Assembly (NCBI GenBank): GCA_030407085.1
Contig: CM059587.1
Span: 102,605,001-102,669,000 of the forward strand
Direction: 5' to 3'
Origin: Trichopria drosophilae
Lineage: Eukaryota > Arthropoda > Insecta > Hymenoptera > Diapriidae
DNA: 64,000 nucleotides
Of this stretch, positions 32,300 to 63,070 are shown piece by piece. The translations under genes and the position numbers were made by a program. The notes beneath the pieces are model-generated. The model saw only the letters and a program-made list of their open reading frames with translations. It made no database searches and was not told the origin of the DNA. Numbering within the stretch: the first letter of the stretch is position 1; every line of letters starts with the position of its first letter.

Positions 32300-33470
32300 C
32301 TGGTAGATAATTTCCGATACTATTCATTTAAAACAGTACAAATTATTACAAGAGCGCGCAGTAACATCGAGATTGTTCCATAGATGTCTAAGGCGATGAG
32401 TAGGAGAGTAAAATATATAATTATTCCTACATACAGATTCACATATCATTCTTTGCGATCTTGTAGCATACGATGTATCTCTAAAAGGAAAAAGTGGGTA
32501 TAAGTTTGATTCTGCACAGATATTTAAGATGCGATATATTAGTAGCATATCATGATAATTATGGATAGATTTAATTGTGAGGAATTTAAGTTCAACATAG
32601 ATCTTATGAAAACTGTGATCGAAACGCGACATTGGATGATTGGATTTGGATGCCAAATACCTGAGCGCTGTCCGCTGAACTCACTCCAATTGTTCTAAAA
32701 CTAGTATACGAATGAGATATGCGATTGAGTGTACATCTTTAAAATCTTTTGTGGCGCTCTGAACAAATCCAAGCATCTTCCCGGGTTTTGTCCGAACATG
32801 ATTTAAATGAGATAGAAAAGTGAGATTTTCACGTATAATGACACCAAGGTCCGAATGCATTAATATTCTTCAAATCGGTTCTTCAACCAATATATAAGCA
32901 TATTCAAATTCCCCCACACGTTGAGTAAACGACAAAATTTTGCACTTCATGATGTTTAAATTTAGACAATTTCCTAGACCATTCTGCAATAGCATTCAAG
33001 TCCCTCTGGAGGTTCAAACCATAAATTGGTGAACGAATATGTTCAAATAGCTTTATGTCATCTGCATACATCAAAATTGAAGAGAATTGCACAGACTCAA
33101 CAATGTCGTTGATGAAAACATTGAAGAGAATTCGACCCAGATCGGAACCCTGAGGTACTCCCGTAGGAACAGCGCATAGTTAAGATCTTGTATTTTTTAA
33201 TCTCACACAATGCGTACACCCAGTCAGGTTAGGCAAGACTTGTCCCATGTCATAATTGTGCCCGAAAACCTCATACGATTTAACTTGCTCAAAAGCAAAT
33301 CGTGGTTGATGTTATCGAATGCCTTCGAAAAGTCCAAGTGGATGTTATCAACTTGATTAATTAACGTTATTGATTGTGGATTGATTTTCACAAAATCCAT
33401 GTTGATTTTTGGTAATAAAAATCGTTAAAACGTTGTTTAATTTAGCAGCCATAATAGACTCAAAAAGTTT
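32300..33470 (-). pseudogene. Jockey-like reverse transcriptase pseudogene, 3' half
   Basis: Reading from 33470 downward, the minus strand gives KLFESIMAAKL, QHGFCENQST, VDNIHLDFSKAFDNINHDLL, then AVPTGVPQGSDLG, LFNVFINDIVESVQFSSILM and the catalytic YADDIKLF (about 33040-33075). It ends with a C-terminal segment at 32324-32656 containing YHDMLLIYRILNIC and SPTHRLRHLWNN, typical of Jockey-clade proteins. Several frameshifts and stops separate these blocks, so it is dead. Its 5' continuation is not adjacent. The frame breaks off at the 8-bp duplication 33463-33470 and resumes at 52179, on the far side of the 18.7-kb element. Confidence 0.85.
33463..33470. repeat. Target-site duplication, left copy
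   Basis: AAAAGTTT directly abuts the left end of the giant element and is repeated exactly at 52179-52186. On the minus strand it is codon sequence of the interrupted RT (…QKLFE…). Confidence 0.9.
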
Positions 33471-33960
33471 ATATGACAGAAGTTCACAACGATTAAAATT
33501 TTAAACGGTCGGATCTAACGTGTCTCGGCGATACCAACTTAAAATCCAAAAGTCACTATAAAATATTGAGCAAATAAACGTGGAATTAATGAATTTTGAT
33601 GTTCAGAAACATATTTAAAAAACGAAAAATATATAATAGAACAATATTGAAAATAATGCTGACCTAAAATAAGTAAAATATCAACGAAAAGTGATATAAA
33701 CCGAACATAACCCGATCCTGTCAAAAGTAAATATATGACGATGGTAAGATCGCATCCATGTAAATTTTCCGCGACGAAATATCGCCTGTAGCAAATTTTC
33801 CGAGTTATTTTTTACCGTTTATTGATATGGATAACAATAGTTCAATCCCCAGGATACCATACGAGCAGATACAGCTGGGAGAGGTTCTTAAAAAAGGAGC
33901 AAAACCGAAATTGCAAAAAATCCAAAAGCCGGTTCTAGCACATTTTCCGAGTTGTTTTTT
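33471..33960 (+). repeat. Left terminal inverted repeat arm
   Basis: This is about 490 bp matching the reverse complement of 51690-52178 with about ten mismatches. The inner half already contains degenerate monomer relatives. The phrase ctgtagcaaattttccgagt at about 33786-33805 and ggttctagcacattttccga near 33931 are both versions of the satellite's gtagaattttttccgagttg. A 61-codon open frame (33539-33724, -) mirrors one in the right arm only because the arms are alike. Confidence 0.88.
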
Positions 33961-36900
33961 TTCGTTTTTCGGGTTCGATTGCATTCCTTGAATACACCGG
34001 AAGTCCTACCAGCAATAAAAAATGGGAGAGGTGCATAGAATAGGAGCCAGAGCGATTTTACGGAAAATCAAAAATCGGCTGTAGAATTTTTTCCGAGTTG
34101 TTTTTTTCGATTTTCAGGGATCATTACATTCCGCTAGTAAACCGGAAGTCCTACCAGCAACAAAAAATGGGAGAGCCGCATAGAATAGGAGCCAGAGCAA
34201 TTTTACGGAAAATCGAAAATCGGCTGTAGAATTTTTTCCGAGTTGTTTTTTTTTCGATTTTCAGGGACCATTACATTCCTTTAATAAACCGGAAGTCCTA
34301 CCAGCAGCAAAAAATGGGAGAGCCGCATAGAATAGGAGCTAGAGCGATTTTACGGAAAATCGTAAATCAGCTGTAGAATTTTTCCCGAGTTGTTTTTTTT
34401 CGATGTTCAGGGTCCATTACATTCTGTTAGTAAACCGGAAGTCCTAGCAGCAGCAAAAAATAGGAGAGCCGCATAGAATAGGAGCCAGAGCGATTTTACG
34501 GAAAATCGAAAATCGGCTGTAGAATTTTTTCCGAGTTGTTTTTTTTCGATTTTCAGGGACCATTACATTCCGCTAGTAAACCGGAAGTCCTACCAGCAGC
34601 AAAAAATGGGAGAGCCGCATAGAATAGGAGCCAGAGCGATTTTACGGAAAATCGAAAATCGGCTGTAGAATTTTTTCCGAGTTGTTTTTTTTCGATTTTC
34701 AGGGACCATTACATTCCTTTAATAAACCGGAAGTCCTACCAGCAGCAAAAAATGGGAGAGCCGCATAGAATAGGAGCTAGAGCGATTTTACGGAAAATCG
34801 AAAATCGGCTGTAGAATTTTTTCCGAGTTGTTTTTTTTCGATTTTCAGGGACCATTACATTCCTTTAATAAACCGGAAGTCCTACCAGCAGCAAAAAATG
34901 GGAGAGCCGCATAGACTAGGAGCTAGAGCGATTTTACGGAAAATCGAAAATCGGCTGTAGAATTTTTTCCGAGTTGTTTTTTTCGATTTTCAGGGACCAT
35001 TACATTCCTTTAATAAACCGGAAGTCCTACCAGCAGCAAAAAATGGGAGAGCCGCATAGAATAGGAGCCAGAGCGATTTTACGGAAAATCGAAAATCGGC
35101 TGTAGAATTTTTTCCGAGTTGTTTTTTTCGATTTTCAGGGATCATTACATTCCTTTAATAAACCGGAAGTCCTACCAGCAGCAAAAAATGGGAGAGCCGC
35201 ATAGAATAGGAGCCAGAGCGATTTAACGGAAAATCGAAAATCGGCTGTAGAATTTTTTCCGAGTTGTTTTTTTTCGATTTTCAGGGACCATTACATTCCT
35301 TTAATAAACCGGAAGTCCTACCAGCAGCAAAAAATGGGAGAGCCGCATAGAATAGGAGCTAGAGCGATTTTACGGAAAATCGTAAATCAGCTGTAGAATT
35401 TTTTCCGAGTTGTTTTTTTTCGATGTTCAGGGACCATTACATTCCTTTAATAAACCGGAAGTCCTACCAGCAGCAAAAAATGGGAGAGCCGCATAGAATA
35501 GGAGCCAGAGCGATTTTACGGAAAATCGAAAATCGGCTGTAGAATTTTTTCCGAGTTGTTTTTTTTCGATTTTCAGGGACCATTACATTCCTTTAATAAA
35601 CCGGAAGTCCTACCAGCAGCAAAAAATGGGAGAGCCGCATAGAATAGGAGCCAGAGCGATTTAACGGAAAATCGAAAATCGGTTGTAGAATTTTTTCCGA
35701 GTTGTTTTTTTTCGATGTTCAGGGACCATTACATTCCTTTAATAAACCGGAAGTCCTACCAGCAACAAAAAATGGGAGAGCCGCAAAGAATAGGAGCTAG
35801 AGCGATTTTACGGAAAATCGTAAATCAGCTGTAGAATTTTTTCCGAGTTGTTTTTTTTCGTTGTTCTGAGTCCATTACATTCCTTTAATAAACCGGAAGT
35901 CCTACCAGCAACAAAAAATGGGAGAGCCGCATAGACTAGGAGCTAGAGCTAGAATTTTTTCCGAGTTGTTTTTTTTATATCTTCAGGGTCCATTACATTC
36001 CTTTAATAAACCGGAAGTCCTACCAGCAGCAAAAAATGGGAGAGGCGCATAGAATAGGAGCTAGAGCGATTTTACGGAAAATCGTAAATCAGCTGTAGAA
36101 TTTTTTCCGAGTTGTTTTTTTTCGATGTTCAGGGTCCATTACATTCTGTTAGTAAACCGGAAGTCCTACCAGCAGCAAAAAATGGGAGAGCCGCATAGAA
36201 TAGGAGCCAGAGCGATTTTACGGAAAATCGAAAATCGGCTGTAGAATTTTTTCCGAGTTGTTTTTTTTCGATTTTCAGGGACCATTACATTCCTTTAATA
36301 AACCGGAAGTCCTACCAGCAGCAAAAAATGGGAGAGGCGCATAGAATAGGAGCCAGAGCGATTTTACGGAAAATCGAAAATCGGCTGTAGAATTTTTTCC
36401 GAGTTGTTTTTTTTCGATTTTCAGGGACCATTACATTCCTTTAATAAACCGGAAGTCCTACCAGCAGCAAAAAATGGGAGAGCCGCATAGAATAGGAGCC
36501 AGAGCGATTTTACGGAAAATCGAAAATCGGCTGTAGAATTTTTTCCGAGTTGTTTTTTTCGATTTTCAGGGACCATTACATTCCTTTAATAAACCGGAAG
36601 TCCTACCAGCAGCAAAAAATGGGAGAGCCGCATAGAATAGGAGCCAGAGCGATTTTACGGAAAATCGAAAATCGGCTGTAGAATTTTTTCCGAGTTGTTT
36701 TTTTTCGATTTTCAGGGACCATTACATTCCTTTATTAAACCGGAAGTCCTACCAGCAGCAAAAAATGGGAGAGCCGCATAGAATAGGAGCCAGAGCGATT
36801 TTACGGAAAATCGAAAATCGGCTGTAGAATTTTTTCCGAGTTGTTTTTTTTCGATTTTCAGGGACCATTACATTCCTTTAATAAACCGGAAGTCCTACCA

Positions 36901-39900
36901 GCAGCAAAAAATGGGAGAGCCGCATAGAATAGGAGCCAGAGCGATTTTACGGAAAATCGAAAATCGGCTGTAGAATTTTTTCCGAGTTGTTTTTTTTCGA
37001 TTTTCAGGGTCCATTACATTCCTTTAATAAACCGGAAGTCCTACCAGCAGCAAAAAATGGGAGAGGTGCATAGAATAGGAGCCAGAGCGATTTTACGGAA
37101 AATCGAAAATCGGCTGTAGAATTTTTTCCGAGTTGTTTTTTTTCGATTTTCAGGGTCCATTACATTCCTTTAATAAACCGGAAGTCCTACCAGCAGCAAA
37201 AAATGGGAGAGCCGCATAGAATAGGAGCCAGAGCGATTTTACGGAAAATCGAAAATCGGCTGTAGAATTTTTTCCGAGTTGTTTTTTTTCGATTTTCAGG
37301 GTCCATTACATTCCTTTAATAAACCGGAAGTCCTACCAGCAGCAAAAAATGGGAGAGCCGCATAGAATAGGAGCCAGAGCGATTTTACGGAAAATCGAAA
37401 ATCGGCTGTAGAATTTTTTCCGAGTTGTTTTTTTTCGATTTTCAGGGACCATTACATTCCTTTAATAAACCGGAAGTCCTACCAGCAGCAAAAAATGGGA
37501 GAGGCGCATAGAATAGGAGCCAGAGCTATTTTACGGAAAATCGAAAATCGGCTGTAGAATTTTTTCCGAGTTGTTTTTTTTCGATTTTCAGGGACCATTA
37601 CATTCCTTTAATAAACCGGAAGTCCTACCAGCAGCAAAAAATGGGAGAGCCGCATAGAATAGGAGCCAGAGCGATTTTACGGAAAATCGAAAATAGGCTG
37701 TAGAATTTTTTCCGAGTTGTTTTTTTTCGATTTTCAGGGACCATTACATTCCTTTAATAAACCGGAAGTCCTACCAGCAGCAAAAAATGGGAGAGCCGCA
37801 TAGAATAGGAGCCAGAGCGATTTTACGGAAAATCGAAAATAGGCTGTAGAATTTTTTCCGAGTTGTTTTTTTTCGATTTTCAGGGACCATTACATTCCTT
37901 TAATAAACCGGAAGTCCTACCAGCAGCAAAAAATGGGAGAGCCGCATAGAATAGGAGCCAGAGCGATTTTACGGAAAATCGAAAATCGGCTGTAGAATTT
38001 TTTCCGAGTTGTTTTTTTTCGATTTTCAGGGACCATTACATTCCTTTAATAAACCGGAAGTCCTACCAGCAGCAAAAAATGGGAGAGCCGCATAGAATAG
38101 GAGCCAGAGCGATTTTACGGAAAATCGAAAATCGGTTGTAGAATTTTTTCCGAGTTGTTTTTTTTCGATTTTCAGGGACCATTACATTCCTTTAATAAAC
38201 CGGAAGTCCTACCAGCAGCAAAAAATGGGAGAGCCGCATAGAATAGGAGCCAGAGCGATTTTACGGAAAATCGAAAATCGGTTGTAGAATTTTTTCCGAG
38301 TTGTTTTTTTTCGATGTTCAGGGCCCATTACATTCCTCTAATAAACCGGAAGTCCTACCAGCAGCAAAAAATGGGAGAGGCGCATAGAATAGGAGCCAGA
38401 GCGATTTTACGGAAAATCGAAAATCGGCTGTAGAATTTTTTCCGAGTTGTTTTTTTTCGATGTTCAGGGACCATTACATTCCTTTAATAAACCGGAAGTC
38501 CTACCAGCAGCAAAAAATGGGAGAGGCGCATAGAATAGGAGCCAGAGCGATTTTACGGAAAATCGAAAATCGGCTGTAGAATTTTTTCCGAGTTGTTTTT
38601 TTTCGATTTTCAGGGACCATTACATTCCTTTAATAAACCGGAAGTCCTACCAGCAGCAAAAAATGGGAGAGCCGCATAGAATAGGAGCCAGAGCGATTTT
38701 ACGGAAAATCGAAAATCGGCTGTAGAATTTTTTCCGAGTTGTTTTTTTTCGATTTTCAGGGACCATTACATTCCTTTAATAAACCGGAAGTCCTACCAGC
38801 AGCAAAAAATGGGAGAGCCGCATAGAATAGGAGCCAGAGCGATTTTACGGAAAATCGAAAATCGGCTGTAGAATTTTTTCCGAGTTGTTTTTTTTCGATT
38901 TTCAGGGACCATTACATTCCTTTAATAAACCGGAAGTCCTACCAGCAGCAAAAAATGGGAGAGCCGCATAGAATAGGAGCCAGAGCGATTTAACGGAAAA
39001 TCGAAAATCGGCTGTAGAATTTTTTCCGAGTTGTTTTTTTTCGATTTTCAGGGACCATTACATTCCTTTAATAAACCGGAAGTCCTACCAGCAGCAAAAA
39101 ATGGGAGAGCCGCATAGAATAGGAGCCAGAGCGATTTTACGGAAAATCGAAAATCGGCTGTAGAATTTTTTCCGAGTTGTTTTTTTTCGATGTTCAGGGA
39201 CCATTACATTCCTTTAATAAACCGGAAGTCCTACCAGCAGCAAAAAATGGGAGAGGCGCATAGAATAGGAGCCAGAGCGATTTTACGGAAAATCGAAAAT
39301 CGGCTGTAGAATTTTTTCCGAGTTGTTTTTTTTCGATGTTCAGGGACCATTACATTCCTTTAATAAACCGGAAGTCCTACCAGCAGCAAAAAATGGGAGA
39401 GCCGCATAGAATAGGAGCCAGAGCGATTTTACGGAAAATCGAAAATCGGCTGTAGAATTTTTTCCGAGTTGTTTTTTTTCGATTTTCAGGGACCATTACA
39501 TTCCTTTAATAAACCGGAAGTCCTGCCAGCAGCAAAAAATGGGAGAGGCGCATAGAATAGGAGCCAGAGCGATTTTACGGAAAATCGAAAATCGGCTGTA
39601 GAATTTTTTCCGAGTTGTTTTTTTTCGATTTTCAGGGACCATTACATTCCTTTAATAAACCGGAAGTCCTACCAGCAGCAAAAAATGGGAGAGGCGCATA
39701 GAATAGGAGCCAGAGCGATTTAACGGAAAATAGAAAATCGGCTGTAGAATTTTTTCCGAGTTGTTTTTTTTCGATTTTCAGGGACCATTACATTCCTTTA
39801 ATAAACCGGAAGTCCTACCAGCAGCAAAAAATGGGAGAGGCGCATAGAATAGGAGCTAGAGCGATTTAACGGAAAATCGAAAATCAGCTGTAGAATTTTT

Positions 39901-42900
39901 TCCGAGTTGTTTTTTTTCGATTTTCAGGGACCATTACATTCCTTTAATAAACCGGAAGTCCTACCAGCAGCAAAAAATGGGAGAGCCGCATAGAATAGGA
40001 GCCAGAGCTATTTTACGGAAAATCGAAAATCGGCTGTAGAATTTTTTCCGAGTTGTTTTTTTCGATTTTCAGGGACCATTACATTCCTTTAATAAACCGG
40101 AAGTCCTGCCAGCAGCAAAAAATGGGAGAGGCGCATAGAATAGGAGCCAGAGCTATTTTACGGAAAATCGAAAATCGGTTGTAGAATTTTTTCCGAGTTG
40201 TTTTTTTTCGATTTTCAGGGACCATTACATTCCTTTAATAAACCGGAAGTCCTGCCAGCAGCAAAAAATGGGAGAGGCGCATAGAATAGGAGCCAGAGCT
40301 ATTTTACGGAAAATCGAAAATCGGCTGTAGAATTTTTTCCGAGTTGTTTTTTTCGATTTTCAGGGACCATTACATTCCTTTAATAAACCGGAAGTCCTAC
40401 CAGCAGCAAAAAATGGGAGAGGCGCATAGAATAGGAGCCAGAGCGATTTTACGGAAAATCGAAAATCGGCTGTAGAATTTTTTCCGAGTTGTTTTTTTTC
40501 GATTTTCAGGGACCATTACATTCCTTTAATAAACCGGAAGTCCTACCAGCAGCAAAAAATGGGAGAGGCGCATAGAATAGGAGCCAGAGCGATTTTACGG
40601 AAAATCGAAAATCGGCTGTAGAATTTTTTCCGAGTTGTTTTTTTTCGATTTTCAGGGACCATTACATTCCTTTAATAAACCGGAAGTCCTACCAGCAGCA
40701 AAAAATGGGAGAGCCGCATAGAATAGGAGCCAGAGCGATTTTACGGAAAATCGAAAATAGGCTGTAGAATTTTTTCCGAGTTGTTTTTTTTCGATGTTCA
40801 GGGACCATTACATTCCTTTAATAAACCGGAAGTCCTGCCAGCAGCAAAAAATGGGAGAGGCGCATAGAATAGGAGCCAGAGCTATTTTACGGAAAATCGA
40901 AAATCGGCTGTAGAATTTTTTCCGAGTTGTTTTTTTTCGATTTTCAGGGACCATTACATTCCTTTAATAAACCGGAAGTCCTACCAGCAGCAAAAAATGG
41001 GAGAGCCGCATAGAATAGGAGCCAGAGCGATTTAACGGAAAATCGAAAATCGGCTGTAGAATTTTTTCCGAGTTGTTTTTTTTCGATTTTCAGGGACCAT
41101 TACATTCCTTTAATAAACCGGAAGTCCTACCAGCAGCAAAAAATGGGAGAGCCGCATAGAATAGGAGCCAGAGCGATTTTACGGAAAATCGAAAATCGGC
41201 TGTAGAATTTTTTCCGAGTTGTTTTTTTTCGATTTTCAGGGACCATTACATTCCTTTAATAAACCGGAAGTCCTACCAGCAGCAAAAAATGGGAGAGCCG
41301 CATAGAATAGGAGCCAGAGCGATTTTACGGAAAATCGAAAATCGGTTGTAGAATTTTTTCCGAGTTGTTTTTTTTCGATGTTCAGGGACCATTACATTCC
41401 TTTAATAAACCGGAAGTCCTACCAGCAGCAAAAAATGGGAGAGGCGCATAGAATAGGAGCCAGAGCTATTTTACGGAAAATCGAAAATCGGCTGTAGAAT
41501 TTTTTCCGAGTTGTTTTTTTTCGATGTTCATGGACCATTACATTCCTTTAATAAACCGGAAGTCCTACCAGCAGCAAAAAATGGGAGAGGCGCATAGAAT
41601 AGGAGCCAGAGCGATTTTACGGAAAATCGAAAATCGGCTGTAGAATTTTTTCCGAGTTGTTTTTTTTCGATGTTCAGGGACCATTACATTCCTTTAATAA
41701 ACCGGAAGTCCTACCAGCAGCAAAAAATGGGAGAGCCGCATAGAATAGGAGCCAGAGCGATTTTACGGAAAATCGAAAATCGGCTGTAGAATTTTTTCCG
41801 AGTTGTTTTTTTCGATTTTCAGGGACCATTATATTCCTTTAATAAACCGGAAGTCCTACCAGCACCAAAAAATGGGAGAGGCGCATAGAATAGGAGCCAG
41901 AGCGATTTTACGGAAAATCGAAAATCGGCTGTAGAATTTTTTCCGAGTTGTTTTTTTTCGATTTTCAGGGACCATTATATTCCTTTAATAAACCGGAAGT
42001 CCTACCAGCAGCAAAAAATGGGAGAGCCGCATAGAATAGGAGCCAGAGCGATTTTACGGAAAATCGAAAATCGGCTGTAGAATTTTTTCCGAGTTGTTTT
42101 TTTTCGATTTTCAGGGACCATTACATTCCTTTAATAAACCGGAAGTCCTACCAGCAGCAAAAAATGGGAGAGCCGCATAGAATAGGAGCCAGAGCGATTT
42201 TACGGAAAATCGAAAATCGGCTGTAGAATTTTTTCCGAGTTGTTTTTTTTCGATTTTCAGGGACCATTACATTCCTTTAATAAACCGGAAGTCCTACCAG
42301 CAGCAAAAAATGGGAGAGCCGCATAGAATAGGAGCCAGAGCGATTTTACGGAAAATCGAAAATCGGCTGTAGAATTTTTTCCGAGTTGTTTTTTTTCGAT
42401 GTTCAGGGACCATTACATTCCTTTAATAAACCGGAAGTCCTACCAGCAGCAAAAAATGGGAGAGGCGCATAGAATAGGAGCCAGAGCGATTTTACGGAAA
42501 ATCGAAAATCGGCTGTAGAATTTTTTCCGAGTTGTTTTTTTTCGATGTTCAGGGACCATTACATTCCTTTAATAAACCGGAAGTCCTACCAGCAGCAAAA
42601 AATGGGAGAGCCGCATAGACTAGGAGCTAGAGCGATTTTACGGAAAATCGAAAATCGGCTGACGAATTTTTTCCGAGTTGTTTTTTTTCGTTTTTCAGGG
42701 ACCATTACATTCTGTTAGTAAACCGGAAGTCCTACCAGCAGCAAAAAATGGGAGAGCCGCATAGAATAGGAGCCAGAGCGATTTAACGGAAAATCGAAAA
42801 TCGGCTGTAGAATTTTTTCCGAGTTGTTTTTTTTTCGATTTTCAGGGACCATTACATTCCTTTAATAAACCGGAAGTCCTACCAGCAGCAAAAAATGGGA

Positions 42901-45900
42901 GAGGCGCATAGAATAGGAGCCAGAGCGATTTAACGGAAAATCGAAAATCGGCTGTAGAATTTTTTCCGAGTTGTTTTTTTTCGATGTTCAGGGACCATTA
43001 CATTCCTTTAATAAACCGGAAGTCCTACCAGCAGCAAAAAATGGGAGAGGCGCATAGAATAGGAGCCAGAGCGATTTTACGGAAAATCGAAAATCGGCTG
43101 TAGAATTTTTTCCGAGTTGTTTTTTTTCGATTTTCAGGGACCATTACATTCCTTTAATAAACCGGAAGTCCTACCAGCAGCAAAAAATGGGAGAGCCGCA
43201 TAGAATAGGAGCCAGAGCGATTTTACGGAAAATCGAAAATCGGTTGTAGAATTTTTTCCGAGTTGTTTTTTTTCGATGTTCAGGGACCATTACATTCCTT
43301 TAATAAACCGGAAGTCCTACCAGCAGCAAAAAATGGGAGAGCCGCATAGAATAGGAGCCAGAGCGATTTTACGGAAAATCGTAAATCGGCTGTAGAATTT
43401 TTTCCGAGTTGTTTTTTTTCGATGTTCAGGAACCATTACATTCCTTTAATAAACCGGAAGTCCTACCAGCAGCAAAAAATGGGAGAGCCGCATAGAATAG
43501 GAGCCAGAGCGATTTTACGGAAAATCGAAAATCGGCTGTAGAATTTTTTCCGAGTTGTTTTTTTTCGATTTTCAGGGACCATTACATTCCTTTAATAAAC
43601 CGGAAGTCCTGCTAGCAGCAAAAAATGGGAGAGGCGCATAGAATAGGAGCCAGAGCTATTTTACGAAAAATCGTAAATCAGCTGTAGAATTTTTTCCGAG
43701 TTGGTTTTTTTCGGTTTTCAGGGACCCTTACATTTCGTTAGTAAACCGGAAGTCCTACCAGTAGTAAAAAATGGAAGAGCCGCATAGAATAGGAGCCAGA
43801 GCGATTTTACGGAAAATCGAAAATCGGCTGTAGAATTTTTTCCGAGTTGTTTTTTTTCGTTGTTCAGGGTCCATTACATTCTTTTAATAAACCGGAAGTC
43901 CTACCAGCAGCAAAAAATGGGAGAGGCGCATAGAATAGGAGCCAGAGCGATTTTACGGAAAATCGGAAATCGGCTGTTGAATTTTTTCCGAGTTGTTTTT
44001 TTTCGATGTTCAGGGACAACTACATTCCCTAGTAAACCGGAAGTCCTACCAGCAACAAAAAATGGGAGAGCCGCATAGAATTTTTTCCGGGTTGTTTTTT
44101 TTTCATTGTTCAGGGTCCATTACATTCCTTCAATAATCCGGAAGTCCTGCCAGCAGCAAAAAATGGGAGAGATTCACAGAATAGGAGCCAGAGCGATTTT
44201 ACGGAAAATCGTAAATCAGCTGTAGAATTTTTTCCGAGTTGTTTTTTTTCGATGTTCAGGGTCCATTACATTCCGGTAGCAAACCGGAAGACCTACCGGC
44301 AGCAAAAAATGGGAGAGGCGCATAGAATAGGAGCCAGAGCTATTTTACGGAAAATCGAAAATCGGCTGTAGAATTTTTTCCGAGTTGTTTTTTTTCGATG
44401 TTCAGGGTCCATTACATTCCTTTAATAAACCGGAAGTCCTACCAGCAGCAAAAAATGGGAGAGGCGCATAGAATAGGAGCCAGAGCGATTTTACGGAAAA
44501 TCGAAAATCGGCTGTAGAATTTTTTCCGAGTTGTTTTTTTTCGATTTTCAGGGACCATTACATTCCTTTAATAAACCGGAAGTCCTACCAGCAGCAAAAA
44601 ATGGGAGAGCCGCATAGAATAGGAGCCAGAGCGATTTTACGGAAAATCGAAAATAGGCTGTAGAATTTTTTCCGAGTTGTTTTTTTTCGATTTTCAGGGA
44701 CCATTACATTCCTTTAATAAACCGGAAGTCCTACCAGCAGCAAAAAATGGGAGAGCCGCATAGAATAGGAGCCAGAGCGATTTAACGGAAAATCGAAAAT
44801 CGGCTGTAGAATTTTTTCCGAGTTGTTTTTTTTCGATTTTCAGGGACCATTACATTCCTTTAATAAACCGGAAGTCCTACCAGCAGCAAAAAATGGGAGA
44901 GCCGCATAGAATAGGAGCCAGAGCGATTTTACGGAAAATCGAAAATCGGCTGTAGAATTTTTTCCGAGTTGTTTTTTTTCGATTTTCAGGGACCATTACA
45001 TTCCTTTAATAAACCGGAAGTCCTACCAGCAGCAAAAAATGGGAGAGCCGCATAGAATAGGAGCCAGAGCGATTTTACGGAAAATCGAAAATCGGCTGTA
45101 GAATTTTTTCCGAGTTGTTTTTTTTCGATGTTCAGGGACCATTACATTCCGCTAGTAAACCGGAAGTCCTACCAGCAACAAAAAATGGGAGAGCCGCATA
45201 GAATAGGAGCCAGAGCGATTTTACGGAAAATCGAAAATCGGCTGTAGAATTTTTTCCGAGTTGTTTTTTTTCGATTTTCAGGGTCCATTACATTCCTTTA
45301 ATAAACCGAAAGTCCTACCAGCAGCAAAAAAAGGGAGAGCCGCATAGAATAGGAGCCAGAGCGATTTTACGGAAAATCGATAATCGGCTGTAGAATTTTT
45401 TCCGAGTTGTTTTTTTTCGATTTTCAGGGACCATTACATTCCTTTATTAAACCGGAAGTCCTACCAGCAGCAAAAAATGGGAGAGCCGCATAGAATAGGA
45501 GCCAGAGCGATTTTACGGAAAATCGATAATCGGCTGTAGAATTTTCTCCGAGTTGGTTTTTTTCGATGTTCAGGGACCATTACATTCCGCTAGTAAACCG
45601 GAAGTCCTACCAGCAACAAAAAATAGGAGAGCCGCATAGAATAGGAGCCAGAGCGATTTTACGGAAAATCGAAAATCGGCTGTAGAATTTTTTCCGAGTT
45701 GTTTTTTTACGATTTTCAGGGACCATTACATTCCGCTAGTGAACCGGAGGTCCCAGCAACCTACAAAAATGGGAGAGCCGCATAGAATAGGATCTAGAGC
45801 GATTTTACGGAAAATCGATAATCGGCTGTAGAATTTTTTCCGAGTTGTTTTTTTTCGATTTTCAGGGACCATTACATTCCTTTATTAAACCGGAAGTCCT

Positions 45901-48900
45901 ACCAGCAACAAAAAATGGGAGAGCCGCATAGAATAGGAGCCAGAGCGATTTTACGGAAAATCGAAAATCGGCTGTAGAATTTTTTCCGAGTTGTTTTTTT
46001 TCGATTTTCAGGGTCCATTACATTCCTTTAATAAACCGAAAGTCCTACCAGCAGCAAAAAAAGGGAGAGCCGCATAGAATAGGAGCCAGAGCGATTTTAC
46101 GGAAAATCGATAATCGGCTGTAGAATTTTTTCCGAGTTGTTTTTTTTCGATTTTCAGGGACCATTACATTCCTTTATTAAACCGGAAGTCCTACCAGCAG
46201 CAAAACATGGGAGAGGCGCATAGAATAGGAGCCAGAGCGATTTTACGGAAAATCAAAAATCGGCTGTAGAATTTTTTCCGAGTTGTTTTTTTTCGATGTT
46301 CAGGGACCATTACATTCCGCTAGTAAACCGGAAGTCCTACCAGCAACAAAAAATGGGAGAGCCGCATAGAATAGGAGCCAGAGCGATTTTACGGAAAATC
46401 GAAAATCGGCTGTAGAATTTTTTCCGAGTTGTTTTTTTTCGATTTTCAGGGACCATTACATTCCTTTAATAAACCGGAAGTCCTACCAGCAGCAAAAAAT
46501 GGGAGAGCCGCATAGACTAGGAGCTAGAGCGATTTTACGGAAAATCGAAAATCGGCTGTAGAATTTTTTCCGAGTTGTTTTTTTTCGATTTTCAGGGTCC
46601 ATTACATTCCTTTAATAAACCGGAAGTCCTACCAGCAGCAAAACATGGGAGAGGCGCATAGAATAGGAGCCAGAGAGATTTTACGGAAAATCAAAAATCG
46701 GCTGTAGAATTTTTTCCGAGTTGTTTTTTTTCGATGTTCAGGGACCATTACATTCCGCTAGTAAACTGGAAGTCCTACCAGCAACAAAAAATGGGAGAGC
46801 CGCCTAGAATAGGAGCCAGATCGATTTTACGGAACATCGAAATTCGGCTGTAGAATTTTTTCCGAGTTGTTTTTTTTCGATTTTCAGGGTCCATTACATT
46901 CCTTCAATAAACCGAAAGTCCTACCAGCAGCAAAAAAAGGGAGAGCCGCATAGAATAGGAGCCAGAGCGATTTTACGGAAAATCGATAATCGGCTGTAGA
47001 ATTTTTTCCGAGTTGTTTTTTTTCGGAGCTCAGGGTCCATTACATTCCTTTAATAAACCGAAAGTCCTACCAGCAGCAAAAAAAGGGAGAGCCGCATAGA
47101 ATAGGAGCCAGAGCGATTTTACGGAAAATCGAAAATCGGCTGTAGAATTTTTTCCGAGTTGTTTTTTTTCGATTTACAGGGTCCATTACATTCCTTTAAT
47201 AAACCGAAAGTCCTACCAGCAGCAAAAAAAGGGAGAGCCGCATAGAATAGGAGCCAGAGCGATTTTACGGAAAATCGATAATCGGCTGTAGAATTTTTTC
47301 CGAGTTGTTTTTTTTCGATTTTCAGGGACCATTACATTCCTTTATTAAACCGGAAGTCCTACCAGCGGCAAAAAATGGGAGAGCCGCATAGAATAGGAGC
47401 CAGAGCGATTTTACGGAAAATCGATAATCGGCTGTAGAATTTTTTCCGAGTTGTTTTTTTCGATTTTCAGGGACCATTACATTCCTTTAATAAACCGGAA
47501 GTCCTACCAGCAGCGAAAAATGGGAGAGCCGCATAGACTAGGAGCTAGAGCGATTTTACGGAAAATCGTAAATCAGATGTAGAATTTTTTCCGAGTTGTT
47601 TTTTTTCGATTTTCAGGGTCCATTACATTCCTTTAATAAACCGGAAGTCCTACCAGCAGCAAAAAATGGGAGAGCCGCATAGAATAGGAGCCAGAGCTAT
47701 TTTACGGAAAATCGAAAATCGGCTGTAGAATTTTTTCCCAGTTGTTTTTTTCGATTTTCAGGGACCATTATATTCCTTTAATAAACCGGAAGTCCTACCA
47801 GCAGCAAAAAATGGGAGAGCCGCATAGACTAGGAGCTAGAGCGATTTTACGGAAAATCGTAAATCAGCTGTAGAATTTTTTCCGAGTTGTTTTTTTTCGA
47901 TGTTCATGGACCATTACATTCCTTTAATAAACCGGAAGTCCTACCAGCAGCAGAAAATGGGAGAGCCGCATAGAATAGGAGCCAGAGCGATTTTACGGAA
48001 AATCGAAAATCGGCTGTAGAATTTTTTCCGAGTTGTTTTTTTCGATTTTCAGGGACCATTACATTCCTTTAATAAACCGGAAGTACTACCAGCAGCAAAA
48101 AATGGGAGAGCCGCATAGAATAGGAGCCAGAGCGATTTTACGGAAAATCGAAAATCGGTTGTCTATTTTTTTCTGAGTTGTTTTTTTTTCGATTTTCAGG
48201 GTCCATTACATTCCTTTAATAAACCGGAAGTCCTACCAGCAGCAAAAAATGGGAGAGGCGCATAGAATAGGAGCCAGAGCGATTTTACGGAAAATCAAAA
48301 ATCGGCTGTAGAATTTTCTCCGAGTTGTTTTTTTTCGATTTTCAGGGTCCATTACATTCCTTTAATAAACCGAAAGTCCTACCAGCAGCAAAAAAAGGGA
48401 GAGCCGCATAGAATAGGAGCCAGAGCGATTTTACGGAAAATCGATAATCGGCTGTAGAATTTTTTCCGAGTTGTTTTTTTTTCGATTTTCAGGGACCATT
48501 ACATTCCTTTATTAAACCGGAAGTCCTACCAGCAGCAAAAAATGGGAGAGCCGCATAGAATAGGAGCCAGAGCGATTTTACGGAAAATCGATAATCGGCT
48601 GTAGAATTTTCTCCGAGTTGGTTTTTTTCGATGTTCAGGGACCATTACATTCCCCTAGTAAACCGGAAGTCCTACCAGCAACAAAAAATAGGAGAGCCGC
48701 ATAGAATAGGAGCCAGAGCGATTTTACGGAAAATCGAAAATCGGCTGTAGAATTTTTTCCGAGTTGTTTTTTTACGATTTTCAGGGTCCATTACATTCCG
48801 CTAGTAAACCGGAAGTCCTACCAGCAGCAAAAAAAGGGAGAGCCGCATAGAATAGGAGCCAGAGCGATTTTACGGAAAATCGATAATCGGCTGTAGAATT

Positions 48901-51337
48901 TTTTCCGAGTTGTTTTTTTTTCGATTTTCAGGGACCATTACATTCCTTTATTAAACCGGAAGTCCTACCAGCAACAAAACATGGGAGAGGCGCATAGAAT
49001 AGGAGCCAGAGCGATTTTACGGAAAATCAAAAATCGGCTGTAGAATTTTTTCCGAGTTGTTTTTTTTCGATTTTCAGGGACCATTACATTCCTTTATTAA
49101 ACCGGAAGTCCTACCAGCGGCAAAAAATGGGAGAGCCGCATAGAATAGGAGCCAGAGCGATTTTACGGAAAATCGATAATCGGCTGTAGAATTTTTTCCG
49201 AGTTGTTTTTTTCGATTTTCAGGGACCATTACATTCCTTTAATAAACCGGAAGTCCTACCAGCAGCGAAAAATGGGAGAGCCGCATAGACTAGGAGCTAG
49301 AGCGATTTTACGGAAAATCGAAAATCGGCTGTAGAATTTTTTCCGAGTTGTTTTTTTTCGATTTTCAGGGTCCATTACATTCCTTTAATAAACCGGAAGT
49401 CCTACCAGCAGCAAAAAATGGGAGAGCCGCATAGAATAGGAGCCAGAGCGATTTTACGGAAAATCAAAAATCGGCTGTAGAATTTTTTCCGAGTTGTTTT
49501 TTTTCGATGTTCAGGGACCATTACATTCCGCTAGTAAACTGGAAGTCCTACCAGCAACAAAAAATGGGAGAGCCGCATAGAATAGGAGCCAGATCGATTT
49601 TACGGAAAATCGAAAATCGGCTGTAGAATTTTTTCCGAGTTGTTTTTTTTCGATTTTCAGGGTCCATTACATTCCTTTAATAAACCGAAAGTCCTACCAG
49701 CAGCAAAAAAAGGGAGAGCCGCATAGAATAGGAGCCAGAGCGATTTTACGGAAAATCGATAATCGGCTGTAGAATTTTTTCCGAGTTGTTTTTTTTCGAT
49801 TTTCAGGGACCATTACATTCCTTTATTAAACCGGAAGTCCTACCAGCAGCAAAAAATGGGAGAGCCGCATAGAATAGGAGCCAGAGCGATTTTACGGAAA
49901 ATCGATAATCGGCTGTAGAATTTTTTCCGAGTTGTTTTTTTTCGATTTTCAGGGACCATTACATTCCTTTAATAAACCGGAAGTCCTACCAGCAGCAAAA
50001 AAAGGGAGAGGTGCATAGAATAGGAGCCAGAGCGATTTTACGGAAAATCGAAAATCGGCTGTAGAATTTTTTCCGAGTTGTTTTTTTTTCGATTTTCAGG
50101 GTCCATTACATTCCTTTAATAAACCGCAAGTCCTACCAGCAGCAAAAAATGGGAGAACCGCATAGAATAGGAGCCAGAGCGATTTTACGGAAAATCGATA
50201 ATCGGCTGTAGAATTTTTTCCGAGTTGTTTTTTTCGATTTTCAGGGACCATTACATTCCTTTAATAAACCGGAAGTCCTACCAGCAGCGAAAAATGGGAG
50301 AACCGCATAGACTAGGAGCTAGAGCGATTTTACGGAAAATCGAAAATCGGCTGTAGAATTTTTTCCGAGTTGTTTTTATTCGATTTTCAGGGTCCATTAC
50401 ATTCCTTTAATAAACCGGAAGTCCTACCAGCAGCAAAAAATGGGAGAGGCGCATAGAATAGGAGCCAGAGCGATTTTACGGAAAATCAAAAATCGGCTGT
50501 AGAATTTTTTCCGAGTTGTTTTTTTTCGATGTTCAGGGACCATTACATTCCGCTAGTAAACCGGAAGTCCTAACAGCAACAAAAAATGGGAGAGGCGCAT
50601 AGAATAGGAGCCAGAGCGATTTTACGGAAAATCGAAAATCGGCTGTAGAATTTTTTCCGAGTTGTTTTTTTTCGATTTTCAGGGACCACTACATTCCTTT
50701 AATAAACCGGAAGTCCTACCAGCAGCAAAAAATGGGAGAGCCGCATAGACTAGGAGCTAGAGCGATTTTACGGAAAATCGTAAATCAGCTGTAGAATTTT
50801 TTCCGAGTTGTTTTTTTTCGTTGTTCAGGGTCCATTACATTCCTTTAATAAACCGGAAGTCCTACCAGCAGCAAAAAATGGGAGAGCCGCATAGAATAGG
50901 AGCCAGAGCGATTTTACGGAAAATCGAAAATCGGTTGTAGAATTTTTTCCGAGTTGTTTTTTTTCGATGTTCAGGGACAATTACATTCCGCTAGTAAACC
51001 GGAAGTCCTACCAGCAACAAAAAATGGGAGAGCCGCATAGAATTTTTTCCGAGTTGTTTTTTTTTCGATTTTTAGGGTCCATTACATTCCTTTAATAAAC
51101 CGGAAGTCCTACCAGCAGCAAAAAATGGGAGAGCCGCATAGAATAGGAGCCAGAGCGATTTTACGGAAAATCGAAAATCGGCTGTAGAATTTTTTCCGAG
51201 TTGTTTTTTTTCGATTTTCAGGGTCCATTACATTCCTTTAATAAACCGGAAGTCCTACCAGCAGCAAAAAATGGGAGAGCCGCATAGACTAGGAGCTAGA
51301 GCGATTTTACGGAAAATCGTAAATCAGCTGTAGAATT
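33961..51337 (+). repeat. 146-bp satellite array, about 118 tandem copies
   Basis: A reference monomer is 34727-34872, starting CCGGAAGTCCTACCAGCAGC. It contains a near-palindrome CGATTTTAC-GGAAAATCG, a T8 tract and an A6 tract. Spacing between successive CCGG marks is 146 bp, with 144-145 where the T tract is shorter. The first mark is at 33997 and the last forward mark at 51246. Copies in 36100-43600 are nearly identical, while those at both edges are more varied, as expected from unequal exchange. From about 45100 to 50600 several monomer subtypes alternate: GCTAGTAAAC, CGATAATCGG, TTTATTAAAC and CCGAAAGTCC types. Shortened monomers occur near 35945, 44079 and 51040. Frames found inside (for example 43860-44078) are translations of the repeat. 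Confidence 0.97.
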
Positions 51338-51690
51338 CTTTGCTGCTGGTAGGACTTCCGGTTTATTAAAGGAATGTAATGGACCCTGAACATCGAAAAA
51401 AACCAACTCGGAGAAAATTCTACAGCCGATTTTCGATTTTCCGTAAAATCGCTCTGGCTCCTATTCTATGCGGCTCTCCCATTTTTTGCTGCTGGTAGGA
51501 CTTCCGGTTTATTAAAGGAATGTAATGGTCCCTGAACATCGAAAAAAACAACTCGGAAAAAATTCTACAGCCGATTTTTGATTTTCCGTAAAATCGCTCT
51601 GGCTCCTATTCAATGCGCCTCTCCCATTTTTTATTGCTGGTAGGACTTCCGGTGTATTCAAGGAACGCAATCGAACCCGAAAAACGAAAA
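51338..51690 (-). repeat. Inverted satellite copies forming the right inner arm
   Basis: At about 51337 the repeat flips orientation with no spacer (…gtagaatt|ctttgctgctgg…). Two full monomers and a partial one follow in reverse, with gctggtaggacttccgg at about 51342, 51490 and 51636. The outermost copy matches the first left-arm copy (agcaataaaaaatggg on its reverse strand). The array is therefore strongly asymmetric, about 118 forward copies to two reverse. Confidence 0.93.
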
Positions 51691-52178
51691 AAAACAACTC
51701 GGAATATGTGCTAGAACCGGCTTTTCGATTTTTTGCAATTTCGGTTTTGCTCCTTTTTTAAGAACCTCTCCCAGCTGTATCTTCTCGTATGGTATCCTGG
51801 GGATTGAACTATTTTTATCCATATCAATAAACGGTAAAAAATAACTCGGAAAATTTGCTAGAGGCGATATTTCGTCGTGGAAAATTTACATGGATGCGAT
51901 CTTACCATCGTCATATATTTACTTTTGACAGGATCGGGTTATGTTTGGTTTAAATCACTTTTCGTTGATATTTTACTTATTTTAGGTCAGCATTATTTTC
52001 AATATTGTTCTATTATATATTTTTCGTTATTTAAATATGTTTCTGAACATCAAAATTCATTAATTCCACGTTTATTTGCTCAATATTTAATAGTGACTTT
52101 TGGATTTTAAGTTGGTATCGCCGAGACACGTTAGATCCGACCGTTTAAAATTTTAATCGTTGTGAACTTCTGTCATAT
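51691..52178 (-). repeat. Right terminal inverted repeat arm
   Basis: Reverse complement partner of 33471-33960, ending with CTGTCATAT at 52178 next to the duplicated AAAAGTTT. The 77-codon open frame 51877-52110 lies entirely in the arm, and its left-arm counterpart on the other strand is nearly identical at the DNA level too. Confidence 0.88.
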
Positions 52179-52186
52179 AAAAGTTT
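52179..52186. repeat. Target-site duplication, right copy
   Basis: AAAAGTTT follows the last base of the right arm, identical to 33463-33470. The flanks (actca on the left, ttgattg on the right) join into an uninterrupted RT codon series when one copy and the element are ignored. Confidence 0.9.
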
Positions 52187-52690
52187 TTGATTGTAACTAA
52201 TTACTGCTAATGACCGATAATGTTCCAACTATGATCTCCGTTCTTAAAAGTAGGCGTAATAAAAGATTTTTCCCATTTTGAAGGAAAGAGATAATTAATT
52301 CCGCAAATAATGTATAGGGTTCAACAGAGATGTCACACAATTTTTCATGGGATCAGATGATATACCATCCGAACCCGAACTGTAAGATGATTTTACACTT
52401 CCAATCGCGTTTTCCAACGCATTAAAGGATATTTTAAAAACATCAATTAATTTAATGGAATCAAAATGTTTTAGTTTTGTTTATTTTATCACAAAAATTG
52501 TATAGGGCTATATAATCAAGTACTTATTAGGTTGCACACTTCCTCAGTTTCAAACAGTGAAATTGATTCACTGATGACAACAGTGACTGGTTCTTTTTCT
52601 CCGATAATATCTTGGCCATCTATATGTATAAATCATAAGAACCGAATTCCTCAAATCTAATTTCTAACCCCAGAAATCTTTGCTGTAATG
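52179..52690 (-). pseudogene. Jockey-like reverse transcriptase pseudogene, 5' half
   Basis: Read from 52690 down to 52179, the minus strand gives DVFKISFNALENAIGSVKSS, YSSGSDGISSDPMKNC, SLLNPIHYLRN, a frameshifted LSLSFKMGK segment and HYRSLAVISYNQKL. These are the N-terminal RT blocks (SSxGxDGIs, xFxxGxxPxxWK, NYRPIAxxSxxxKLFE) that precede the part preserved at 32300-33470. Above 52600 a FWG-like junction suggests the linker behind an endonuclease domain, but no endonuclease is recognisable. Stops and frameshifts throughout mark it as dead. Confidence 0.75.
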
Positions 52691-62860: not shown

Positions 62861-63070
62861 GCCTTGTCTTGTCTTCTCTCGTCTTGTTTCGCCTGGTATT
62901 GTCTTATCTTGTCTCGTCTGGTATTGTCTCGTACGGTCTTGTCTTGTCTTGTATTGTCTGGTCTTGTCTTGTCTTGTCTGGTCTTGTCTTGTCTTGTCTG
63001 GTCTGGTCTGGTCTTGTCTTGTCTTGTCTTGTCTTGTCTTGTCTTGTCTGGTTTGGTCTTGTCTTGTCTT
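62861..63070 (+). repeat. GTCTT/GTCTG pentanucleotide microsatellite
   Basis: About 42 consecutive five-base units run here, mostly GTCTT with GTCTG and other variants. They are least regular at the left end (62861-62930) and most regular at 62935-63065. Because the unit is five bases and lacks stops in all phases, every frame stays open. This produces spurious frames on both strands. Confidence 0.95.

Follow-up and report, generated by a model that had tools for sequence, protein, structure and literature searches.

A 146-bp satellite array enclosed in a foldback transposon, and its sister copies in the genome of Trichopria drosophilae

How does a long satellite array come to lie between the two ends of a transposon? 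The origin of satellite arrays is an old question, and resolved borders and short siblings are usually missing. We analyzed an 18.7-kb element at positions 33471-52178 of a 64,000-nucleotide stretch of Trichopria drosophilae DNA (the window), whose family offers both: young insertions with 12, 14, and about 120 units are available, together with a further young copy (C5) with 174 in the parts read. Since borders and short siblings are both present, the rate and direction of growth and its dependence on chromosomal place could be measured using a single long-read genome together with its relatives. The short and longer sister copies suggest how a satellite array arises inside a transposon, and the family also yields a transposase candidate for mobilization. 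The features of the locus are as follows.

32969-33470, minus strand: target, downstream part of a match to a decayed non-LTR reverse transcriptase (coordinates approximate)
33463-33470, no strand: left 8-bp target-site duplication AAAAGTTT (all-against-all flank test)
33471-33705, plus strand: outer part of the left arm, without monomer similarity, with the exact terminus ATATGACAGAAGTTCACAACGATTA (terminus, arm alignment, genome 25-mer matches)
33664-33693, minus strand: codons HFSLIFYLF plus stop in the left arm, homologous to the last codons of the frame in relic L048 (arm alignment with L048)
33706-33945, plus strand: decayed monomer sequence of the left arm, about 1.7 units (alignment score against shuffled maximum)
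33936-51330, plus strand: forward array, 120 matches to the 146-bp monomer, some truncated (BLAST; matches from 33943)
51331-51345, no strand: central head-to-head junction TAGAATTCTTTGCTG, of which the TTCTTTGCTGCTGG part is also in the old copy L022
51335-51704, minus strand: three inverted monomer matches in the right arm, the unexpanded side (BLAST)
51705-51943, minus strand: decayed monomers in the right arm (arm alignment)
51944-52178, minus strand: outer part of the right arm with the exact terminus (termini, arm alignment)
51956-51985, plus strand: the same C-terminal codons in the right arm (arm alignment with L048)
52179-52186, no strand: right 8-bp target-site duplication AAAAGTTT (all-against-all flank test)
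52187-52226, minus strand: target, upstream portion of the match to the decayed reverse transcriptase (13 residues, approximate coordinates)

The preliminary description had reported a foldback element with exact inverted ends, an exact 8-bp duplication, and both borders resolved, all of which we confirmed. The inverted termini (ATATGACAG...CTGTCATAT) lie exactly at 33471 and 52178, the element ends read ATATGACAGAA, and AAAAGTTT is present on both sides. In the window, the terminal 37 bp occur in two places only (up to 3 mismatches), both of them element ends, and 100 shuffles gave no occurrence. When the flanks of nine copies were compared all against all, none of the 72 mismatched left/right pairs reached 7 of 8 identical positions; therefore, chance is no explanation for the duplication. 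Moreover, the element sits within a decayed reverse transcriptase. The flanks, joined with one copy of the duplication, matched RVT_1 (E 1.5e-12, residues 55-234 of the joined piece), and this match crosses the junction at residues 67/68. By contrast, the intact reverse transcriptase of the window gave no alignment across the junction.

Using a 146-bp consensus, we obtained 123 BLAST matches in the window, 120 forward and 3 inverted, some monomers being truncated; the earlier count had been about 118. The forward monomers have a mean pairwise identity of 95.7% and form a long, homogenized, head-to-tail, noncoding array, as in satellite DNA. Its most uniform block lies at about 36242-42660. Units at 36825-42660 differ on average by 0.75 to 1.4% from the consensus and those in the rest of the array by about 2 to 4%, and divergent units are also found away from the array edges (9.6% at 44076, 11.0% at 45683). 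The breaks in truncated monomers fall at the repeated motif TAGAAT, which is the pattern expected from slippage or unequal exchange. A higher-order repeat was rejected, identity being flat at lags of 1 to 15 (95.8 to 96.1%), and the period of 438 given by TRF equals three monomers. None of the seven stop-to-stop frames of at least 130 amino acids in the window falls inside the element. A comparison of the chemoreceptor frame with 1365 candidates gave no match at E 0.001. No hammerhead or other RNA reached the gathering score in the window, the one match in 33471-36000 (E 5) being at chance level.

Aligned along 846 bp of the left arm, the two arms show 25 substitutions and a single 1-bp gap. 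Their outer parts differ at 9 of 465 positions (1.9%), and the inner, monomer-bearing parts at 16 of 381 (4.2%). Thus, the likeness of about 98% stated previously holds for the outer part, but the alike arms extend well beyond the 490 bp or so that had been given. Arm positions of about 237-475 aligned to the monomer with a score of 59.5, the highest score among 100 base shuffles being 26, indicating that the decayed monomers noted earlier are real. They occupy the same place in both arms.

In one relic, L048, an arm is joined to a broken, frameshifted transposase-like gene. Protein homology extends to 8 bp or less from the arm, and the frame ends ISLIFYLF stop. Since the last transposase-like codons and the stop lie in the arm of L048, the arms are probably the 3' end of that transposase-bearing transposon, made up of the terminal repeat, an untranslated part, the stop codon, and the last codons. 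This tie comes from a single relic whose left end is outside the sequence read, and the joining may be a coincidental fusion. The C-terminal codons persist in other arms no more than homology predicts and so provide no separate test of the link. The transposase-like protein group, which is marked by the motifs DFSEN, TDGAKQHYKN, and AEWHFHATAHGKGxCDGxGA, is also represented by relatives in wasps and in ants; no family was found for it in Pfam, NCBIfam, or PDB sequences. As to the autonomous relative that the preliminary description proposed to look for, the analysis found a broken transposase-like relic joined to one arm.

In the 936-Mb genome, the element of the window is one of a dispersed family. 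A genome-wide search with the 25-mer terminus returned 38 matches (up to 3 mismatches; control, 0); the genome-wide counts bearing on satellite abundance are lower bounds. Exact 8-bp duplications flank six of the 10 copies with both ends read, the window included, and those of the other five copies are different sequences. One more copy, C2:23.27, reaches 7 of 8 only when its decayed end is read by hand with a shift (2 of 8 by script). Two of the 10, C1:129.8 and C6:81.2, have no duplication, and in L038 it is absent by eye. The possibility envisaged earlier, that the arms are never accompanied by 8-bp duplications, thus does not apply. The proposed search for other copies found them, short sister copies included, with unit numbers varying between copies. 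The related young copies L010 and L011 have 14 and 12 unit matches, C5 is an element of about 45 kb that was partly read, the old copy L022 has 9 matches, and the ancient copy L043 contains only weak monomer-like traces. Exact duplications are carried by the three young insertions read whole and by C5.

Several candidates were set aside. The 25-mer variants ATATGACAGACGTTCACCAA (3 of 38) lie inside a coding frame common to three loci, copia-like by eye. L040 and L042 hold just 48 bp of the element end, with other material beyond. The inner 414-bp array of L009 is a different satellite, running up to a C-rich tract. In L014/L033, the left arm is followed by about 17.5 kb without a partner arm, and the one frame tested there had no Pfam family.

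We then compared the arrays across copies. Forward and inverted unit matches number 120 and 3 in the window, 5 and 9 in L010, 0 and 12 in L011, and 1 and 27 in L020. The array accordingly occupies mostly the left arm in the window, whereas L011 and L020 carry it in the right arm and the longest copy in both. The central TTCTTTGCTGCTGG is common to the window and the short L022, and one of the 119 near-full monomers of the window has its variant GCAAAGAA, suggesting that the centre is older than the array. Two of the nine forward/reverse junctions seen have this same centre; L010, L012, L015, L020, L023, L025, and C5 differ. Identity is 95.9% within the window and 95.8% between the window and C5 forward units, and the young arrays draw on one pool of monomer variants. 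Therefore, the young arrays did not each arise from one monomer; some of the amplification may be older than the insertions, or different loci may exchange array sequence. The window array had no unit order in common with any of 10 other array parts, of which 7 are young; among the other arrays, two pairs exceeded their 12 shuffles, L013/C5 forward (30.8 versus 29.5) and L013/C5 inverted (12.4 versus 12.3). All 81 units of C6:59.0 and 18 of 20 in L020 are nearest to their own locus, and these old loci look to have amplified on their own.

Very probably, the element is a nonautonomous foldback copy whose arms are the 3' end of a transposase element and whose array grew from its own units after insertion. 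Given the ends, the duplication, the family, the variable unit numbers in either arm, and the arm joined to a transposase-like frame, we infer the following course. In an old copy, two such 3' ends would have come to lie head to head around a few 146-bp units. This copy would then have been mobilized by a trans-acting transposase, with 8-bp duplications as the result. Its units, by unequal exchange or replication slippage, would have multiplied after insertion until one or both arms became a satellite array, leaving 120 unit matches in the left arm and 3 in the right arm of the window. Also in favour of this course are the uniform block, the breaks at TAGAAT, and the unshared unit order of the window array; the shared variant pool, the divergent units away from the array edges, the two copies that have no duplication, and the missing alignment with the intact reverse transcriptase speak against it. 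The earlier suggestion that the array grew from the transposon's own inner repeats is supported by the decayed monomers in both arms and by the short sisters; the centre common with one old copy agrees with it, but seven of the nine junctions differ. It is to be amended in that growth lies mainly in one arm of this copy and that the young arrays draw on a common variant pool.

Alternatively, a master element might have jumped with a long array already in place, the short copies being contractions. Such an ancestral array would account for young loci sharing monomer variants nearly equally between and within loci and for long arrays standing in young (window, C5) and old (C6:59.0, L024) copies. 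However, the unit order of the window array was not found elsewhere, C6:59.0 and L020 look self-amplified, and other old copies are short (L022) or retain weak unit traces (L043), and we consider this origin quite unlikely. It is also conceivable, although very unlikely in our judgment, that the satellite came first and was captured by the transposon, or that the transposon inserted around parts of it, making the borders products of recombination. Monomer arrays do occur on the unplaced contigs C373, C319, and C234, known from monomer matches rather than from array ends. Conversely, the window and most of the other copies read have decayed monomers adjoining the outer arm, and monomer-like traces persist within the ancient L043. 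C149 and C375 also have an arm, but both contigs were located via their arms and so are no independent evidence against capture.

That the assembler made the length or symmetry of the array seems to us highly improbable. C-rich, filler-like tracts of about 500 bp touch other copies (L009/L029, L027/L047), with an irregular one at L015, and the copy at C1:129.8 has flanks that are inverted copies of each other. The window, however, is free of such tracts, its longest exact internal repeat (440 bp) is short for long reads, and it agrees with five other copies, whose exact duplications differ in sequence. Returning to growth from the element's own units, a bolder extension, which we regard as rather unlikely, concerns the parent. 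It would be a DNA transposon with a transposase group outside the described superfamilies, its 3' end serving as a long-lived satellite incubator (ancient copies plus a young burst). Short foldbacks would jump, and the first arm to slip would then lengthen into an array of tens of kilobases, making the parent the source of all 146-bp satellite in the genome.

As to class, the long inverted arms with internal tandem repeats, the lack of coding capacity, and the several dispersed copies with target-site duplications are those of a foldback element. The superfamily, like the mechanism of amplification, is inferred. hAT elements have a CAG-type terminal repeat. Their 8-bp duplication is found here, the termini read ATATGACAG, and no hAT domain was matched in the L048 frame. 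The 8 bp also fall within the 8 to 10 bp on which the part of the Tetris report used here bases a Mutator (MULE) assignment (PMC4079207). A MULE link was rejected, as there was no scored match to the transposase (PF10551) near the ends (150 of 399 candidates scored, 144 of them on C1 to C6, compared with 33 termini; nearest, 36.6 kb) and the L048 frame had no Pfam match. In the P superfamily, Galileo duplications are 7 bp with the consensus GTANTAC, according to the part of the source consulted (PMC4168063), and the 8-bp duplications here lack this consensus. No THAP-type Pfam family was found in L048, L041, and five relatives, most of which are partial.

FB/NOF foldbacks of Drosophila melanogaster likewise have long arms with internal tandem repeats, but their units and duplication length are likely to differ from those here. 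By analogy, the element appears to work like Tetris of Drosophila virilis and to be a variant of an already known kind, a likeness that rests on the published description and not on sequence. Among the papers listed by word searches of the open-access literature for insect foldback satellites, Tetris was the only close case recognized; PMC10783647 has 0 mentions of Tetris, and words for the motif ATATGACAG and Sola1 gave nothing useful. As described in the portion of the report drawn on (PMC4079207), Tetris is also a nonautonomous foldback with a unique flanking domain outside and tandem repeats inside its arms, with comparable duplications of 8 to 10 bp. Complete copies there have short arrays and long homogeneous arrays lie elsewhere, as here, and one allelic change in unit number came about by duplication of one unit (PMC4079207). 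Three Tetris copies are structurally complete, arrays reach 66 copies, and 39 of 69 contigs hold repeats only (PMC4079207). In contrast to that description, the unit here is 146 bp rather than about 220 bp, 120 unit matches are bounded on both sides by exact ends and flanked by an exact duplication, and in L048 a transposase-like relic is attached to an arm, whereas no transposase copy was found for Tetris (PMC4079207). In Tetris, 37 bp are common to the unit and the flanking domain (PMC4079207), whereas similarity between outer arm and unit is not above that of shuffled sequence here (22% and 28% of 300 shuffles scored equally high). Galileo of D. willistoni, in the part of its report used, also has very long arms and direct tandem repeats of about 140 bp, with one copy of 9 kb; its duplications are 7 bp, rarely 8 bp, its duplication consensus GTATTAC is absent here, and its repeat regions hold about 2 to 9 units (PMC4168063). 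Satellite-like growth inside nonautonomous elements is likewise described, in the section consulted, for tandem-repeat MITEs and Helitron/Helentron arrays. The elements concerned belong to Tc1/mariner, to other MITEs, or to the rolling-circle type, whereas the element here is a foldback with 8-bp duplications (PMC12628747).

The preliminary description had recognized a block bounded by exact inverted termini and an exact 8-bp duplication, and both features were borne out. Its arms had been put at about 490 bp and 98% alike; the outer 465 bp indeed differ at only 9 positions, but the alignable arms reach 846 bp, in which 25 substitutions and a single 1-bp gap occur, 16 differing positions falling in the inner 381 bp. 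The array is tandem as proposed, but the 146-bp monomers, previously counted as about 118, amount to 120 forward and 3 inverted unit matches. The features, in window positions, are as follows.

33471-52178: foldback element, exact inverted ends, AAAAGTTT on each side
Left arm, outermost ~235 bp: no similarity to the unit
Left arm, next ~240 bp inward: decayed units
Left arm, after the decayed units, ending at 51330: array, 120 forward unit matches
Between 51330 and 51335: head-to-head junction of the forward array and the inverted units
51335-51704: inverted units of the right arm, 3 unit matches

These counts indicate that the right arm retains the short state, whereas the left arm carries the array. 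The forward units have a mean identity of 95.7%, and no higher-order period was seen among them. The most uniform block (~36242-42660) averages 0.75-1.4% from the consensus. The first unit (11.0%) and the outermost inverted unit (10.2%) are among the most divergent in the window, and interior units are also strongly divergent (9.6% at 44076, 11.0% at 45683). In two truncated units the break falls at a recurrence of TAGAAT, a motif of the unit itself, which is what slippage or misaligned exchange would be expected to produce.

The genome comprises 936 Mb in 509 contigs, and the window is located on contig C6 at 102.6 Mb. Searching this genome with 490 bp of the arm revealed a family of dispersed copies, with at least 61 matches (40 of 145 candidates scored). 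A genome-wide scan for the first 25 bp of the element, tolerating as many as 3 mismatches, gave 38 sites, of which at least 3 are something other than element ends; the reversed control gave 0. Ten copies, window included, had both ends read, and six of them carry an exact 8-bp duplication. Thus, the possibility that other arm copies are never flanked by such duplications is contradicted by five copies besides that of the window. None of 72 mismatched flank pairs, used as a control, attained 7/8. Copies are named by contig and Mb.

Duplications flanking the ten copies
Window: AAAAGTTT, exact 8 bp
C2:167.5: TTGTTTTC, exact 8 bp
C2:129.7: CTATTTTT, exact 8 bp
C5:54.5: ATGATTTG, exact 8 bp
C4:119.0: TTATTTTA, exact 8 bp
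C4:91.3: TTTAAAGA, exact 8 bp
C2:204.2: 7/8
C1:129.8: 2/8; flanks mutually inverted (670 bp, 99%)
C2:23.3: 2/8 scripted; 7/8 by eye, allowing for a decayed right end
C6:81.2: none seen by eye

The 38.7-kb copy with inverted outer flanks (C1:129810031-129848731; pieces L015 and L016), beyond which unit matches of both orientations continue to 129.887 Mb, is either a large palindrome or a misassembly. C-rich tracts of ~500 bp that mark the end of an array or a switch (L015 2401-2824, L027 3917-4414, L029 4866-5361) probably reflect gap filling during assembly or artefacts of base calling. A different array, built of ~30 copies of a 414-bp unit and showing a stronger period at 1262 bp, spans L009 2168-10000 and L029 1-4866 (C6:58595167-58607865); it starts ~130 bp past an arm that holds five units of 146 bp, and stops at a regular 500-bp C15A tract resembling gap filler. 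We also noted a 918-bp element (L039, C2:191258445-191259362) whose ends read ATCTGACAGAAGTTTGCAAC and whose arms match at 91% over 149 bp; it may represent a related terminal-repeat family. A further find was an ancient foldback relative (L043 274-1640, C3:112772073) with an outer arm 74% identical and unit-like traces around GCGATTTTTCGAAAAATA.

The comparison of unit number between copies, proposed earlier together with a search for short forms, revealed both short and long sisters.

Unit matches (forward/inverted) and left-right arm difference
L010 (2.9 kb): 5/9, total 14; 0.86%
L011 (2.5 kb): 0/12, total 12; 1.41%
Window: 120/3, total 123; 1.94%
C5 copy: 174 in the parts read; 2.82%
L020: 1/27, total 28; 3.24%
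L022 (old copy): 4/5, total 9; 1.18%

The C5 copy extends over 54468724-54523093, of which ~9.3 kb is inserted material that follows base 39 of its left terminus, leaving an element of ~45 kb. Its unit matches were counted in three pieces (61 in L018, 27+26 in L044, 60 in L019), and the stretches between these are known only from matches of both orientations. A tree of 27 arms leaves 14 of its 24 inner branches open, but 20 of its rows form a supported young group (100/99) that includes L010, L011, L020, C5 and the window; L022, C2:204, C1:144, C6:59 and C1:165 fall outside it. Unit number thus varies by a factor of about ten or more among fairly close relatives, and which of the two arms is expanded is not constant between copies. 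A larger arm difference accompanies a longer array in L010, L011, the window and C5, but L020 breaks this trend. Long arrays are also present in old copies (C6:59.0, L024).

The observation is confirmed and largely explained: the inner repeats of a foldback transposon turned into a satellite array, most likely in place. Growth of the array from the transposon's own inner repeats, as first suggested, is supported by the decayed units in the arms and by the relatives with few units. The central junction reads GAATTCTTTGCTGCTGG in the window and CGTTCTTTGCTGCTGG in the old L022. Of 697 units from all loci, just two carry the variant GCAAAGAA, one in L023 and the other among the 119 near-full units of the window. 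The simplest reading of these sequences is that both junctions would descend from one centre, in which case the foldback would predate the window's array. Counting against such descent, all seven other junctions seen (L010, L012, L015, L020, L023, L025 and C5) differ from this centre; that of L015 sits at a C-rich tract.

Growth from a single unit is argued against by the young loci, whose units are nearly as alike between as within loci (95.9% within the window, 95.8% from the window to C5 forward units, 94.8% to L013). Older loci group by their own units, the nearest neighbour lying within the locus for 81/81 units of C6:59.0, 18/20 of L020 and 26/31 of L024. No unit order shared with the window array was found among 10 other array parts (12 shuffles each); two pairs of non-window arrays were slightly above their shuffles (12 each). 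For the growth in place that we favor, we propose that the jumping form would carry a small set of unit variants, which would be amplified and shuffled later, at each insertion place. Units may also be exchanged between loci.

A transposase-bearing relative with the same termini had been suggested as a target; a relic frame is joined to an arm in L048, but no intact transposase was found between these ends in the fetched loci and the window. In L048 (C1:90.68 Mb), a right-end arm with an exact terminus (94% identical over 222 bp) directly adjoins a broken protein-coding frame, whose protein is 37% identical over 99 residues to the frame of L041. The latter has 22 database relatives, including hypothetical proteins of the wasp Eretmocerus hayati and of the ants Trachymyrmex septentrionalis and Camponotus floridanus. 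A two-frame match of L048 to one relative, P0009 (E 5e-25), ends 8 bp ahead of the arm start, at residue 246 of 270 in P0009. The protein group shares the motifs DFSEN, TDGAKQHYKN and AEWHFHATAHGKG-CDG-GA, and its acidic residues suggest a DDE enzyme. Searches of Pfam, NCBIfam and PDB sequences assigned no family to the group; a chromo-like stretch appeared in the relative P0022 alone, below the cut-off. A check of the window and all fetched loci placed this protein in L041 and L048 alone.

The last codons of the L048 frame (ISLIFYLF and stop) are situated inside the arm, and are kept in 7 of 8 arms tested (both window arms, C4:91.3, C1:144.5, C2:204.2 and two old relatives, L043 with one change and L049); the C6:59.0 arm gave no row in this comparison. 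Such conservation is what homology of the arms would produce, and the script found the place through its own letters, so the retained codons do not constitute an independent test. Most simply, the arms would represent the 3' end of a transposase-bearing transposon; alternatively, the arm-gene joint in L048 may be a chance fusion. L041 itself has a terminus similar to the element's ~3.1 kb from its coding frame, a pairing that is only suggestive, as L041 was picked by eye among 153 matches and the reversed control gave 91. MULE transposase frames are abundant in the genome (at least 150, with 150 of 399 candidates scored), several having 400 or more residues without stops; the closest to an element end, among 144 compared, lies 36.6 kb away.

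A foldback transposon with a satellite array has a precedent in Tetris of Drosophila virilis. In that element each arm has a unique domain on the outside and tandem repeats on the inside, and duplications measure 8-10 bp; arrays are short where the copy is complete, and reach lengths of up to 66 units elsewhere (PMC4079207). Our family follows the same plan. What it contributes beyond Tetris is a long array within a complete, exactly duplicated element, the existence of close relatives that hold few units, and an arm fused to a transposase-like relic. Galileo arms can contain ~140-bp tandem repeats, but the duplication consensus differs from our duplications (PMC4168063). Interest remains through the short-to-long copy series and the transposase lead.

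On the minus strand, the flanks of the window element translate as a decayed non-LTR reverse transcriptase. When the flanks were joined with one duplication copy, frame and homology continued over the junction (RVT_1, E 1.5e-12, residues 55-234 of the joined piece), which falls between residues 67 and 68. Because the right flank contributes 13 residues of the match, the evidence from that flank is genuine but brief. Using tblastn with the window's own intact reverse transcriptase, we obtained no alignment spanning the element junction. Elsewhere in the window, 10836-15450 holds long non-LTR retrotransposon coding frames, one of 1158 aa matching endonuclease and reverse transcriptase. A 332-aa frame at 7628-8626 (minus strand) matches the 7tm_7 chemosensory receptor family, and a protein search with it returned no relative; the presence of this receptor frame suggests an insect source. 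Finally, 62863-63070 comprises ~42 units of the pentamer CTTGT.
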